Assembly: GCA_026706895.1 (NCBI GenBank)
Contig: JAPOXW010000006.1
Coordinates: 1 to 64,000, forward strand
Reading direction: 5' to 3'
Length of the DNA stretch: 64,000 nt
Origin: Gammaproteobacteria bacterium
GTDB taxonomy: Bacteria; Pseudomonadota; Gammaproteobacteria; Poriferisulfidales; Poriferisulfidaceae
Shown: positions 6,899 to 13,555 of the stretch, in pieces
Position numbering within the stretch: position 1 is the stretch's first letter
How the letters are laid out: each line of letters begins with the position of its first letter
Position numbers and translations under genes: made by a program
Notes under the pieces: model-generated
Seen by the model: only the letters and a program-made list of their open reading frames with translations
Databases searched by the model: none
What the model was told of the DNA's origin: nothing

Positions 6899-7318
6899 AT
6901 GATTATTCTTGACACCAATGTCATATCGGAATTGATGCGGGACAGCCCTCATCCGATCATGCTGACTTGGCTGAATGAACAACCCTCTCGTGCCTTGTTT
7001 TCCACGGCTGTAAATGAGGCAGAAATCCTTTCCGGAATTGCGGTGTTACCCGAGGGGAAACGGCGAAATCGACTTGCAGTTGCAGCCTCACATGTCTTCG
7101 AGAAATTGTTTGTCAACCGCATTCTGCCGTTTGACAGCAGTGCTGCCATCGCCTATGCGGAAATTGCCTCGGAACGACGTGCTTCTGGTCATCCAATTAG
7201 TCACTTTGATGCTCAAGTCTCTGCGATTGCCCGCTCAAGAAATGCCGCTATTGCAACCCGCAACACCAAAGATTTCGAAAACACTGGACTTCACGTGATC
7301 AATCCGTGGATTTTATAA
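6899..7318 (+). CDS. fitB: FitB-like PIN-domain toxin (VapC family)
   Basis: 139 aa PIN-domain ribonuclease. The first acidic metal ligand is in MIILDTNVISEL, further acidic residues lie at AVNEAEI and in SHFDAQVSAIARS, and the C-terminal ATRNTKDF matches VapC/FitB proteins. Such toxins cut tRNA or rRNA when the antitoxin is degraded. The reading frame is intact and all expected catalytic acids appear present. It converges on uvrB with only 14 bp between the stop codons. Confidence 0.9.
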   Translation: MIILDTNVISELMRDSPHPIMLTWLNEQPSRALFSTAVNEAEILSGIAVLPEGKRRNRLAVAASHVFEKLFVNRILPFDSSAAIAYAEIASERRASGHPISHFDAQVSAIARSRNAAIATRNTKDFENTGLHVINPWIL

Positions 7319-9429: not shown

Positions 9430-10611
9430 ATGGAACGCGCCCTTTCGAAACGGGTCGGACGTTGCGAGCCTTCCGCAACGCTGGCCGTCTCCGCGACTGC
9501 GCGCCGCCTGCGCGCGGCGGGGCAGGAAATCATTGATTGGAGTGCCGGAGAACCGGACTTCGACACCCCGGAAAACATCTGCGACGCGGCGATCCAGGCC
9601 ATCCGCGACGGCCAGACCCGCTACACCTCGGTGGGTGGGACGCCAGCCCTGCGCGCCGCCATCGCGCACAAGTTCCACCGCGACAACAAGCTGCACTTCG
9701 AGGCCGACCAGATCCTGGTGAGCGCCGGCGCGAAGCAGGCCCTGTACAACTGCCTGCAGGCAGTGATCGATCCCGGCGACGAAGTCGTCATTCCCGCCCC
9801 CTACTGGGCCTCTTACCCCGACATGGTGCGGCTCGCGGGCGGCGAGCCGGTGTTCCTGCCGACCACTCTGAAGCAGAATTTCCGCCCCACAGCCGAGCAG
9901 TTGGATCAAGCGATCAGCCCGCGCACGAAACTGCTGATCCTCAACAGCCCGTCCAACCCCTGCGGCGCCATGCTGCACCGGGAGGATCTTGAGGGTTTTG
10001 CCCGCGTGCTGCGCGCACATCCCCATGTCCGCGTGGCGTCCGACGACATCTACGAACTGATCCGGTTCGACGGCGTGCCGTTTTGCAACCTGGTCCAGGT
10101 CGCGCCCGACCTGAGCGACCGTGTCCTCCTCATCAACGGCGTCTCCAAGGCCTATGCCATGACCGGCTGGCGAATCGGCTATGCGGCCGGACCCAAAGAC
10201 ATCATCGACGCCATGCTGATCGTCCAGTCGCAGAGCACCTCCAACCCCAGCTCGATCGCCCAAGCCGCCGCCTGTGCCGCTTTGCTGGAAGACCAGTCCT
10301 CGGTGCCCGACATGGTGGCCGCATTCGAACAGCGCCGCAACTACATCGTGGCGGCACTCAACGAACTGCCCGGCATTACCTGCCTGAAGCCCGATGGCGC
10401 GTTCTACTGCCTGCCGGACGTCGGCGAAGCGATGCGCCGGCTGGAATGCCCTTCCGACATCGAGTTCGCCACCCTGCTGCTCGACCAGTTGCGCCTTGCC
10501 GTCGTGCCCGGTCTCCCGTTCGGCTCGGCCGAGCACATCCGGGTCTCGTTCGCCACCGACATGCCGACCCTTGAGGAAGGCATCTCGCGCCTGCGCGATC
10601 TTCTTGACTGA
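9430..10611 (+). CDS. Class I/II pyridoxal-phosphate aminotransferase (aspartate aminotransferase type)
   Basis: 393 aa fold-type I aminotransferase. Motifs: SAGEPDFDTPENI, the NSPSNPCG substrate/PLP loop (172-179), SDDIYE, and the PLP lysine K240 in NGVSKAYAMTGWRIGY. This pattern matches the I-gamma aspartate aminotransferases of many bacteria. The open frame extends over 1 kb upstream antisense to uvrB, but homology starts at this ATG. Its last 8 bp overlap the TTG start of a dioxygenase gene, making it the likely first gene of a four-gene operon that ends with a Cas6-like protein. Confidence 0.92.
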   Translation: MERALSKRVGRCEPSATLAVSATARRLRAAGQEIIDWSAGEPDFDTPENICDAAIQAIRDGQTRYTSVGGTPALRAAIAHKFHRDNKLHFEADQILVSAGAKQALYNCLQAVIDPGDEVVIPAPYWASYPDMVRLAGGEPVFLPTTLKQNFRPTAEQLDQAISPRTKLLILNSPSNPCGAMLHREDLEGFARVLRAHPHVRVASDDIYELIRFDGVPFCNLVQVAPDLSDRVLLINGVSKAYAMTGWRIGYAAGPKDIIDAMLIVQSQSTSNPSSIAQAAACAALLEDQSSVPDMVAAFEQRRNYIVAALNELPGITCLKPDGAFYCLPDVGEAMRRLECPSDIEFATLLLDQLRLAVVPGLPFGSAEHIRVSFATDMPTLEEGISRLRDLLD

Positions 10612-11482
10612 AATTCCCCTTTCCCCGCCTGCCGCGTGGTGGGACCTTTCACGCACGGATGCCTATCGGGCATGGCGGGAACAGGTGCTCGGCGAAAGCG
10701 GGGTGGATTTCACGCCGGTCGAGATCCGAAATCCCGCCAAGCTGGATGCGCCAGAGATCGGCGCCCTGACCTCGCGTCTGCATGCCGGCGGGACTGTCTG
10801 CTACGTCACGGACCGGATCCCCGAACCCCGCGACCTACTGGCCTTCGGCGAGCAACTGGGGCTTGAACACCTCGACCATCACCAGTGCGCCGAACCGGAC
10901 GGGGTGGCGAAGCTGACGGCACGGGAAGATACGGCCGGGCGATTCATCCCGTACACCCGCCACCGGCTGCGCTGGCACACCGACGGATACTACCAGCCGG
11001 AGACGCAGAAAATCCGCAGTTTCATCCTGCACTGCATTCAGCCGGCGCTCGAAGGCGGCATCAACCGACTGCTTGACCCGCGCCTGCTGTACATCGCCTT
11101 GCGTGATGAAGACCCGGACCTGATCTGGGCGCTGGCCCATCCCGAGGCCTTCACGGTCCCCGCCCACGCCGAAGACGGCCAGGAGCGCCGGGCCGAATTC
11201 AGCGGACCGGTCTTTTCGGTCGACGGCGAACACCTGTACATGCGTTATACCGAACGTGCCATCCACATCCGTTGGCACTCCGAAACCGAGGCCGCGCGAA
11301 TTCGAATTCAGGAACTGCTGGAAACCCTGCCGCAGGCGAAACGCCCCCTGCGCCTGGAGGCGGGATGCGGGTTGATCGCGCATAATGTATTGCACTGCCG
11401 GAGTGCCTACACCGACTCTGCCGATCACCCCCGCCTGCTGTACCGGACCCGCTACACGGATCGCGCCCGCCTCCCATGCTGA
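10604..11482 (+). CDS. TauD/TfdA-family Fe(II)/2-oxoglutarate-dependent dioxygenase
   Basis: 292 aa from a TTG start inside the preceding stop region. The facial triad is visible: H125 and D127 in RWHTDGYY, and H264 in NVLHCRSAY; R281 or R283 in LLYRTRY would bind 2-oxoglutarate. RFIPYTRHRLRWHTDGYY is similar in style to gamma-butyrobetaine hydroxylase and TauD proteins. The substrate is unknown. It overlaps the next gene by 7 bp. Position between an aminotransferase and a Cas6-like RNA-binding protein leaves open both amino-acid and RNA-related substrates; I see nothing that decides between them. Confidence 0.85.
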   Translation: MTEIPLSPPAAWWDLSRTDAYRAWREQVLGESGVDFTPVEIRNPAKLDAPEIGALTSRLHAGGTVCYVTDRIPEPRDLLAFGEQLGLEHLDHHQCAEPDGVAKLTAREDTAGRFIPYTRHRLRWHTDGYYQPETQKIRSFILHCIQPALEGGINRLLDPRLLYIALRDEDPDLIWALAHPEAFTVPAHAEDGQERRAEFSGPVFSVDGEHLYMRYTERAIHIRWHSETEAARIRIQELLETLPQAKRPLRLEAGCGLIAHNVLHCRSAYTDSADHPRLLYRTRYTDRARLPC

Positions 11483-11667
11483 CCCTGAGCGAACTCCTGA
11501 TCGCCCACTATGACCTGGATTCCTTCGAGGGCCTCAAGGACCTGATTGCGGCGCGCATCGATGCGGGAGAACGGTTCCTCAGCCTGGACGTCCGGCCTCC
11601 CTTTTCCGATACCCCGGAAGATTGGGAGGAGCAGCTGGAAAGCTTCTTCACGGCTCGCCGTCCCTGA
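11476..11667 (+). CDS. 63-aa acidic protein, unknown
   Basis: A small protein with a predicted helical N-terminus (LTLSELLIAHYDLDSFEGLKDLIAARIDAG) and an acidic second half with several aromatics (DTPEDWEEQLESFF). It overlaps the dioxygenase by 7 bp and ends 2 bp before the Cas6-like gene, so it is translationally packed between them and probably expressed with both. There is no membrane segment, Cys or known motif. It may be a binding partner of one neighbour; that is inference from spacing only. Confidence 0.75.
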   Translation: MLTLSELLIAHYDLDSFEGLKDLIAARIDAGERFLSLDVRPPFSDTPEDWEEQLESFFTARRP

Positions 11668-11669
11668 CC

Positions 11670-12347
11670 GTGCACTGGCAGGAATCGGACACGCCTCCTC
11701 CCGCCGTCGCGCCGGACGTGGTGGACGTCCGCTACCGAATCCGCTGCAAGGCCTTGCCGGTCGACCATGCCCGCGACTTGCGCTCGGCGCTTCTCGCGGC
11801 CTGGCCCTGGCTTGCGGATGAACCGCTCGCCGGCGTCCACACGATTCACGGGGCCGAATCCGGGAACGGCTGGATTCGACCGGAAGACCCGACGACCTAC
11901 CTGCCGCTGTCGAAGCGCACCCGGCTGGCCCTGCGGCTGCCCTACCACCGGCTTGAGGAAGCGCGAGCGTTGTCCGGAGTCACCTTGCAGATCGGCCCGG
12001 ACCCGATGGTCATCGAGGACAACCGCCTGCATCCGCTGCAGGCACAAGGCACGGTTTTTGCCCGTTACATCGCGATCGAGAACGAGGACGAGGAAGAATT
12101 CCTGGGTCTGTGTGCCGAACAACTGAAGGGAATCGGCATTGAAGCCCCGCGCATGATGGCGGGCCGCACCCATCTCGTCGCCGGGGGCGAGGGAGCCCTG
12201 CACTGCCGCAGCCTGATGCTGGACGGCCTTGATCCCGAGCAATCCGTGAACCTCCAGCGCCAAGGTCTCGGCCCCGAGCAGTTACTGGGCTGCGGCCTGT
12301 TCCTGCCCCACAAGAGCATCGCGCCCGTCGCGACACCGTCGAAGTAA
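11670..12347 (+). CDS. Cas6/Cmx6-like (type I-MYXAN) RAMP protein outside a CRISPR locus
   Basis: 225 aa from a GTG two bases after the previous stop. The N-terminal DHARDLRSALLAAWPWL followed by G-V-H-T-I-H-G, the central RLALRLPYHRLEEARAL with a later QAQGTVFARYI, and the C-terminal glycine-rich loop GLGPEQLLGCGLF (199-211, pattern GhGx5GhGhh) match my memory of the Cmx6 (TIGR02807/PF09559) Cas6 family, RNA-binding RAMP proteins that process CRISPR RNA. Candidate catalytic histidines are H93, H168 and H214. No repeat array or other cas gene is visible in the window. Whether it still cuts RNA is unknown. Confidence 0.72.
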   Translation: MHWQESDTPPPAVAPDVVDVRYRIRCKALPVDHARDLRSALLAAWPWLADEPLAGVHTIHGAESGNGWIRPEDPTTYLPLSKRTRLALRLPYHRLEEARALSGVTLQIGPDPMVIEDNRLHPLQAQGTVFARYIAIENEDEEEFLGLCAEQLKGIGIEAPRMMAGRTHLVAGGEGALHCRSLMLDGLDPEQSVNLQRQGLGPEQLLGCGLFLPHKSIAPVATPSK

Positions 12348-12378: not shown

Positions 12379-13014
12379 GTGAAAAAGGTAAAAACTGTTC
12401 ACGATCTCTTGTGCAAGGCGTATACCGATCTATCTGTAGCGGATACACGCATCGACAAAGAACGGGCAGGCAAAAAACTTAAAAATCCGGTAGGTTATAG
12501 GGAGAGTACGTTCGGTGAATATTTCCGAGGGGAACGCAAACCGGCCCCTCTCATGAAAGAAGAGCGGGAAAAGATGCGGAAAGGACAAATGTGCCACTAC
12601 TGCGAGAAGCCATTTCCTTCCGGCAAGGGATTAACGGCGGAGCACATACTGCCGACCGATCGCGGCGGACCGGACAGGCCAGGAAACATAATATGGGCTT
12701 GTCAGTCATGTAATAGCTCAAAATTGAATAAAGACTTCATCGCATGGGCGTTGGGGTCGGACATGGGGTTTCCGCCAATAGGGCTGATTCGGCATTATCT
12801 GAAGCTGGTGTGGGAGTTTTGTGGGCAGAATGGTTTGATGGAGAAAGATTTGGCCGAGGTGGAAAAATTGCCAGCCGATGAAATCCCTTTTGACTGGGAC
12901 AGCCTGAAACTGGGCAGCAGCGCGTGTCCATATCCAGCCAATGTACACCGACGTCAATGGGTCAATAAACAGTTGACCAGTAACACCCAAGCTGCTGATG
13001 CGTCTGCATGCTAA
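12379..13014 (+). CDS. HNH endonuclease domain protein
   Basis: 211 aa from a GTG. The zinc-framed HNH fold is complete: C72-x2-C75 (MCHYCEKPF), catalytic-type H89 in AEHILPTDRGG, N103 in PGNIIWACQSCN, and C108-x2-C111. The N-terminal 65 residues are basic and the C-terminal 90 unassigned. GC content drops sharply from the preceding operon, and a toxin-antitoxin pair follows, so this looks like acquired DNA. Possible roles include phage defence, homing or repair; no partner gene indicates which. Confidence 0.8.
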   Translation: MKKVKTVHDLLCKAYTDLSVADTRIDKERAGKKLKNPVGYRESTFGEYFRGERKPAPLMKEEREKMRKGQMCHYCEKPFPSGKGLTAEHILPTDRGGPDRPGNIIWACQSCNSSKLNKDFIAWALGSDMGFPPIGLIRHYLKLVWEFCGQNGLMEKDLAEVEKLPADEIPFDWDSLKLGSSACPYPANVHRRQWVNKQLTSNTQAADASAC

Positions 13015-13065
13015 TGCTGGGTGATTGGTCAGACCCCAATTATTTTCTGTGGTAACATTAAATAA

Positions 13066-13335
13066 ATGTCGATTGAATTCGACGAAGAAAAACGTGCAGC
13101 CACTCTTAAAGCGAGAGGGCTGGATATGGCTCGGGCCGGAGAGGTATTCGAAGGTACCACTCTGACTGATGAAGATGACCGGAGAAACTATGGCGAAGAC
13201 CGTTTCATCACGATCGGATTTCTTGATGAAAGAATGGTGGTTCTGGTCTGGACTCCAAGAAATGATGCATATCGCATCATCAGCATGAGGCAAGCAAATG
13301 AGCGGGAAAAAGCATTCTACGCTCCAAGATTTTGA
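13066..13335 (+). CDS. brnT: BrnT-family toxin
   Basis: 89 aa with the BrnT pattern: N-terminal IEFDEEKRAATLKARGLDMARAGEVF, then R-x-x-Y-G-E-D-R-F (RRNYGEDRFITIGF), then MVVLVWTPRNDAYRIISMRQANEREKAFY. BrnT is a RelE-like ribonuclease that blocks translation. The gene precedes and overlaps its antitoxin by 38 bp, the toxin-first order normal for brnTA. No good RBS is visible before the ATG. Confidence 0.92.
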   Translation: MSIEFDEEKRAATLKARGLDMARAGEVFEGTTLTDEDDRRNYGEDRFITIGFLDERMVVLVWTPRNDAYRIISMRQANEREKAFYAPRF

Positions 13336-13555
13336 CCCGGATGATGCTCCGGATCTTTCTCAGGGCGATTGGCCGGAAAAATTTGCCAAGGTGCCTGTTC
13401 GCCGAGGTCGGCCTCCTCTTGAAAAGCCGAAGGTGTCCACCACCATTCGTTTGTCGCCAGACGTGATCGATCACTTCAAGGCCGGGGGCCGGGGGTGGCA
13501 GACTCGGATCGACCTAGCTCTTCGTGAATGGATCGGGAAACATGATGCCGCGTGA
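13298..13555 (+). CDS. brnA: BrnA-family antitoxin
   Basis: 85 aa. The acidic N-terminus carries DFDPDDAPDLSQGDWPEKF, the BrnT-binding part, then the RGRPP motif, then a C-terminal ribbon-helix-helix (VSTTIRLSPDVIDHFKAGGRGWQTRIDLALREWI) that would repress the brnTA promoter. It overlaps the end of brnT, so the two are coupled. It lies just before the conserved rpsF operon, at the edge of the low-GC accessory patch. Confidence 0.92.
   Translation: MSGKKHSTLQDFDPDDAPDLSQGDWPEKFAKVPVRRGRPPLEKPKVSTTIRLSPDVIDHFKAGGRGWQTRIDLALREWIGKHDAA

Follow-up and report, generated by a model that had tools for sequence, protein, structure and literature searches.

What is a protein of the Cas6 family, which to our knowledge is regarded as an enzyme of CRISPR systems only, doing in a locus where no CRISPR array is found? 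The question is raised by a 64,000-nucleotide stretch of DNA (hereafter the window; positions 1 to 64,000 of contig JAPOXW010000006.1, assembly GCA_026706895.1) from a gammaproteobacterial relative of the sponge symbiont 'Ca. Porisulfidus', in which the gene of a 225-aa Cas6-like protein closes a trio whose other members encode a TauD-type dioxygenase and a 63-aa acidic protein. Across the Gammaproteobacteria this gene was found to be a near-constant companion of dsrABEFHCMK, the reverse Dsr (rDsr) operon of sulfur oxidizers, and to mark the pathway about as well as dsrA does. We know of no description of that operon that includes a Cas6-like component.

The 225-aa protein is a member of the Cas6/Cmx6 family

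The Cas6-like protein is encoded at 11670..12347 on the forward strand, from a GTG start. In a hidden Markov model search it scored 179.6 bits against PF09559 (cut-off 26.7) and 105.6 bits against TIGR02807, the NCBI equivalog model 'cas6_cmx6' (cut-off 98.85), and the models of PADLOC likewise label it Cas6. An AlphaFold model calculated from 57 relatives (predicted local distance difference test score, pLDDT, 89; predicted template modelling score, pTM, 0.84) was searched with Foldseek, and the top match of this predicted fold was the Cas6 of a type I-B CRISPR-associated transposon (CAST; E about 1e-14, template modelling score, TM, 0.76-0.80), with other Cas6 structures next. The same CAST protein (PDB 8fcj, 8fcu) is also, in sequence, the closest relative with a solved structure (E 4e-9). 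Thus the family scores, the PADLOC name and the fold match establish that the Cas6 observation is real and that the protein is a true member of the Cas6/Cmx6 family, as a first-pass annotation, made from the letters of the window without database searches, had proposed from its C-terminal glycine loop and its likeness to the I-MYXAN Cmx6 family.

In Cas6 enzymes a catalytic histidine and the glycine loop serve the cleavage and the binding of RNA. Both features were followed in an alignment of 15 dsr-linked and CRISPR-linked Cmx6 sequences (A4), in which six cyanobacterial proteins, most of them with an adjoining cas3 gene, formed the CRISPR-linked comparison set. The Cas6 hallmark loop GLGPEQLLGCGLFLP (residues 199-213; 12264..12308, forward strand) contains the columns G199, G201, G207, G209 and F211, all invariant in the alignment. 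His33 (codon 11766..11768, forward strand) is invariant as well (15/15) and is 98% conserved within the dsr-linked clade, and Arg89 is likewise common to the two groups. His33 is a candidate for the catalytic histidine on the strength of this conservation, while PDB 8fcj carries Asn at the aligned position. The protein thus shares with the Cas6/Cmx6 of type I-MYXAN (I-B-like) systems its family scores, fold, glycine loop, His33 and Arg89; in contrast to it, however, the window protein has no array within the window and no Cas1 in the genome (the search for cas genes covered Cas1 and cas3_core), is acidic rather than basic, bears motifs of its own and is tied to dsr. From the CAST Cas6, which is a subunit of Cascade with CRISPR RNA (crRNA), it differs in that no Cascade gene accompanies it here.

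The dsr-linked proteins were monophyletic with a support of 0.94 in a tree that held the six CRISPR-linked sequences as a thin outgroup, and they are 24-28% identical to these six. Nearly invariant motifs peculiar to the clade are an N-terminal WxE, GAESGNGWxRP and a C-terminal PHKxI, and its conserved residues are mostly basic or histidine (R70, R83, R89, R132, K161, K215, H33 and H57). Carriage by phages or plasmids was considered and rejected: phage records and viral contigs yielded no relative of the protein, and the plasmid matches were cyanobacterial CRISPR-linked Cmx6 only.

The Cas6-like gene accompanies the rDsr operon

A census of 368 gammaproteobacterial genomes, with dsrA called at E below 1e-30, found the Cas6-like gene in 117 and dsrA in 118. 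Both were present in 110 genomes, the Cas6-like gene alone in 7, dsrA alone in 8 and neither in 243 (Fisher p=2e-74, uncorrected for phylogeny). When the two genes shared a contig they lay within 12 kb of each other in 81 of 83 pairs, and dsrA was divergent in 81/81. Neighbourhoods of 16 kb showed the trio in most lineages to be divergent from, and upstream of, dsrABEFHCMK, in the order DsrQ dioxygenase, 63-aa protein, Cas6-like protein and then usually a DsrC-like protein, an order shared by many gammaproteobacterial families. A separate scan of GTDB genomes yielded more than 560 relatives, of which 80 were kept; these included Thioalkalivibrio, Thiothrix, Thiohalobacter, Thiogranum and Sedimenticola, the closest being a 'Ca. 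Porisulfidus' genome. Among the 50 kept relatives with more than 5 kb of upstream sequence, divergent dsrA was present in 45, the dioxygenase in 45 and the 63-aa protein in 47. Even genomes as small as about 1 Mb have kept the Cas6-like gene, and we regard a functional link between it and rDsr as very probable.

The genomes that depart from this pattern are mostly incomplete at the relevant place. In most of the seven with the Cas6-like gene only, G298 not being counted among these, the contig stops where dsrA would be expected, and one of the seven (G317, locus L083) retains a dsrA fragment at a contig edge. As to the eight genomes with dsrA only, the contig ends about 150 bp beyond dsrA in G207, begins inside the module in G123, where the dioxygenase and 63-aa genes are present, and has dsrA at or near its end in G110, G070, G079 and G211; in G238, a genome 55% complete, dsrA is a fragment, and in G354 about 1.7 kb upstream of dsrA is visible and does not contain the module. 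With such breaks and fragments, none of these eight is a demonstrated case of a complete rDsr genome without the Cas6-like gene. In six further genomes (G109, G324, G226, G032, G057 and G125) the module is broken up, but none of dsrA, the Cas6-like gene, the dioxygenase gene and the 63-aa gene has been lost.

The window's genome (1.69 Mb in 33 contigs, about 99% complete, with a single PF09559 gene) is itself a case of scattered parts. Its dsrA lies on contig C9, with the DsrC-like gene still next to it, whereas the trio is found on C5; the three genes have thus left dsr as one block. The place that the trio takes in relatives is filled here, between the DsrC-like gene and dsrA, by an AbiEii/AbiEi toxin-antitoxin pair (L077:8564-10073, G000:C9).

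Presence of the gene is independent of CRISPR

No CRISPR-like repeat array and no Rfam CRISPR element was found in the window. In the rest of the genome arrays were probed solely through Cas1 and Cas3, with no direct scan for arrays or effector genes; Cas1 was absent and cas3_core matched only sub-threshold helicases. Within that scope the window's genome does not hold a type I-MYXAN CRISPR-Cas system to which the protein could belong. In the 368-genome census, 50 genomes had both the Cas6-like protein and Cas1, 67 the Cas6-like protein only, 85 Cas1 only and 166 neither (p=0.11), so that presence of the Cas6-like protein is independent of Cas1. A role in CRISPR, whether of its own system or in trans, was rejected given the missing Cas1, the lack of an above-cut-off Cas3 and the independence from Cas1. 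The first-pass annotation had reported no array, cas1 or effector gene in the 64 kb, had named two findings that would overturn its reading, namely the lack of a significant Cmx6 match and an I-MYXAN system elsewhere in the genome, and had suggested a chromosomal function for the Cas6 fold. No array was found in the window and no Cas1 in the genome, neither of the two overturning findings appeared, and a chromosomal function is what the conserved order of the trio across families without dependence on CRISPR points to.

Partner proteins of the module

The dioxygenase gene (10604..11482, forward strand, TTG start) encodes a TauD/TfdA-family Fe(II)/2-oxoglutarate dioxygenase (PF02668, 62.6 bits) in which H123, D125, H262 and R275 of the HxD...H...R motif are conserved (alignment A3). 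According to PMC7596348, Lenk et al. 2012 gave the name dsrQ to a TauD-like gene next to dsr; a release of sulfite from sulfonates is put forward there as its speculative role, and neither a 63-aa nor a Cas6-like protein is named in that passage. The window dioxygenase belongs to this set of TauD-family genes that stand divergently beside dsrA, and we refer to it as the dsrQ equivalent. The divergent site upstream of dsrA is occupied in most relatives; in contrast to DsrQ as described, the trio in the window's genome lies away from dsr. The enzyme resembles dioxygenases of small trimethylammonium molecules. The distance matrices of the dioxygenase and the Cas6-like protein show the highest correlation of those compared (r 0.81; the permutations reached at most 0.34), which is compatible with a physical partnership and is no proof of one.

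The 63-aa acidic protein (11476..11667, forward strand, ATG start) is conserved in most gammaproteobacterial and in two alphaproteobacterial rDsr loci, with a mean column identity of 60% over 38 sequences (alignment A2). It has no protein family match, and its AlphaFold model (pLDDT 88) gave no fold match in the PDB. In several families a gene of 235-270 aa stands between the 63-aa and Cas6-like genes (L064:8593-9297, L057:7198-8013 and others); it has no Pfam or NCBIfam match.

Downstream of the Cas6-like gene there is usually a DsrC/TusE-family protein (for example L065:7623-7961; in the window's genome L077:8027-8362), which ends in RRKGGY. The C-terminal cysteine, present in 55/55 DsrC proteins, is absent from 92/93 of these adjacent DsrC-like proteins, so that sulfur carriage of the usual kind is impossible for them. 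We take them to resemble the regulatory DsrC homologues named RspA.

Search for an RNA target in the dsr locus

The length of the dsrA-dsrB spacer is close to 100 nt (median 106 over 84 loci), and about half of these spacers (L057-L141) contain a strong G+C-rich hairpin, the sequences of which differ; 35 of 80 fold with z below -2, and about half are no more structured than shuffled sequences. The hairpin is absent from the window's own dsr locus, where the spacer is 31 nt, and from compact relatives that keep the Cas6-like protein. A universal hairpin target in the dsr spacers was rejected on that account.

A second candidate was the palindrome TATCCC-N4-GGGATA, which occurs about 130-350 bp upstream of dsrA in 42 of 79 loci when one mismatch is allowed, as against 2 of 1580 shuffled sequences. 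It is followed at fixed spacing by CACCCCAtGGgTAGG, and in the window's genome it is found at G000:C9:10168-10183 (L077); it gave no significant match in the window and was not present in the non-gammaproteobacterial loci checked. As an RNA hairpin target it was set aside, since a conserved sequence that keeps a constant distance from a second element is more in line with a DNA operator, and the palindrome looks like a shared operator of dsr.

Function of the Cas6-like protein

The explanation to which we give tentative preference, as one that falls just short of probable, is that a Cas6 has been domesticated outside CRISPR as a gammaproteobacterial accessory of the rDsr pathway, where it acts as an RNA-binding regulator; the regulatory mechanism, taken by itself, is put forward with slightly more reserve. 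The Cas6-like protein would keep a site that binds and possibly cleaves RNA, with DsrQ and the 63-aa protein as its partners it would act on an RNA or transcript encoded in trans, and the outcome would be an expression or assembly of rDsr tuned to the supply of oxygen or 2-oxoglutarate. A bolder version, which we consider rather unlikely, would have the CRISPR-derived ribonuclease as an RNA-guided or RNA-binding regulator in complex with DsrQ and the 63-aa protein, the complex forming an RNA switch that responds to oxygen or 2-oxoglutarate and thereby controls rDsr activity.

The preferred explanation draws on the family scores and fold, the match with dsrA in occurrence and position, the independence from Cas1, the persistence of the parts in lineages with broken synteny, the correlation between the dioxygenase and Cas6-like distance matrices, the retained His33, Arg89 and glycine loop, and the mostly basic or histidine character of the clade's conserved residues. 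Several results weigh against a domesticated RNA-binding regulator of rDsr. The dsr-clade protein is acidic (median isoelectric point, pI, 6.06, net charge -5), whereas its CRISPR-linked relatives have a pI of 9.3-9.6 and a charge of +6 to +10. In eight related compact genomes with the Cas6-like gene, RNAalifold gave no conserved structure for the dsr spacers, and for the region between DsrQ and dsrA no more than -4.8 kcal/mol. Two genomes (G061 and G014) have dsrA and the Cas6-like gene with the dioxygenase and the 63-aa protein not detected, so that the members of the trio do not always go together. Of 219 genomes drawn at phylum level, 46 carried dsrA and the Cas6-like gene was found only in the window's own, leaving 45 non-gammaproteobacterial dsrA genomes without it. 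Only two of 12 non-gammaproteobacterial loci that were read are canonical rDsr loci, in which dsrEFHCMK adjoins the genes of the dioxygenase and the 63-aa protein; neither of the two has a Cas6-like gene, and alphaproteobacterial dsr loci lack it. It follows that rDsr as such can run without a Cas6-like protein. The dioxygenase and 63-aa pair is thus older or broader in distribution, and the Cas6-like gene is a gammaproteobacterial addition. For the proposal of the first-pass annotation that RNA processing is tied to oxidation of RNA we found no evidence, the protein being acidic and the dsr operon having no conserved RNA target.

The main alternative, doubtful in our judgement, is that RNA binding has been lost and the double-ferredoxin fold of Cas6 now serves as a structural scaffold for DsrQ and the 63-aa protein. 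The shift from basic to acidic pI would be explained by it, as would the lack of a conserved cis RNA element and the strength of the correlation with the dioxygenase, and the three clade-specific motifs suggest a new interface; however, His33 and the glycine loop are still conserved, and G061 and G014 keep the Cas6-like gene without a detected dioxygenase. If instead the protein cut the dsr polycistronic mRNA in cis, at the dsrA-dsrB spacer hairpin, it would set the ratio of DsrAB to the rest of the operon. The strong hairpins visible in many spacers agree with such processing, which is nevertheless improbable, given the compact loci that have the protein and no hairpin and the spacers with structure no greater than that of shuffles. 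Equally improbable, in our view, is a link to RNA modification or to tRNA, in which the Cas6-like protein would hand an RNA (a tRNA, for instance) over to the DsrQ oxygenase or to neighbouring sulfur carriers of the TusE/DsrC type: a 2-oxoglutarate oxygenase and a DsrC/TusE-family protein are indeed its conserved neighbours, but the latter lacks the C-terminal cysteine and the former has the look of a small-molecule enzyme.

Two further explanations deny any role in sulfur oxidation, and both are very improbable. The protein might be a CRISPR leftover, or a crRNA processor acting in trans on arrays elsewhere, as the Cas6/Cmx6 names given to it by NCBI and PADLOC models would have it; against this, the genome has neither Cas1 nor a cas3_core match above cut-off, presence across the 368 genomes tracks dsrA almost one to one and not Cas1, and the clade is separate from the CRISPR-linked members and distant from them in sequence. 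It might equally be a neutral neighbour that shares no more than ancestry with dsr. Vertical inheritance is likely, and the Fisher test ignores phylogeny, but the gene has been kept in small genomes and in lineages where synteny is broken, and its motifs are invariant across distant families.

Significance

Sulfur oxidation is of global importance at hydrothermal vents, in sediments, in oxygen-minimum zones and in symbioses. A Cas6 clade present in nearly every rDsr-bearing gammaproteobacterial genome exposes an unrecognised component of that process and provides an example, open to direct test, of a CRISPR protein recruited into host physiology. The presence of DsrQ beside dsr was already reported (PMC7596348); the link of a Cas6-like protein to dsr did not appear in the papers searched. 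In a literature search for such a link, the papers that contained both terms concerned ordinary CRISPR, and the figures of Lenk et al. 2012 could show the genes unnamed. All three dsr-linked proteins tested scored above the TIGR02807 cut-off, and since TIGR02807 is an equivalog model, NCBI annotation would name those that pass it type I-MYXAN CRISPR-associated proteins. Such naming amounts to a systematic database error and probably makes CRISPR seem more frequent among sulfur oxidizers than it is.

Organisation of the locus in the window

The genes of the trio are tightly coupled, as the first-pass annotation had noted: the dioxygenase and 63-aa open reading frames overlap by 7 nt, and 2 nt separate the latter from the Cas6-like open reading frame. 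While that annotation saw the trio correctly, it missed the connection with the rDsr locus and, upstream, the overlap with a class I/II aminotransferase gene (9430..10611, forward strand; PF00155, 264.7 bits). The 3' end of this gene and the start of the dioxygenase gene have 8 nt in common, and the trio is thus probably co-transcribed with the aminotransferase gene in the window's genome; the arrangement is local to this genome and not part of the conserved order. An HNH endonuclease gene and a BrnT/BrnA toxin-antitoxin pair adjoin the trio, and a PIN-domain toxin-like gene lies further upstream (window positions 12379-13555 and 6899-7318).

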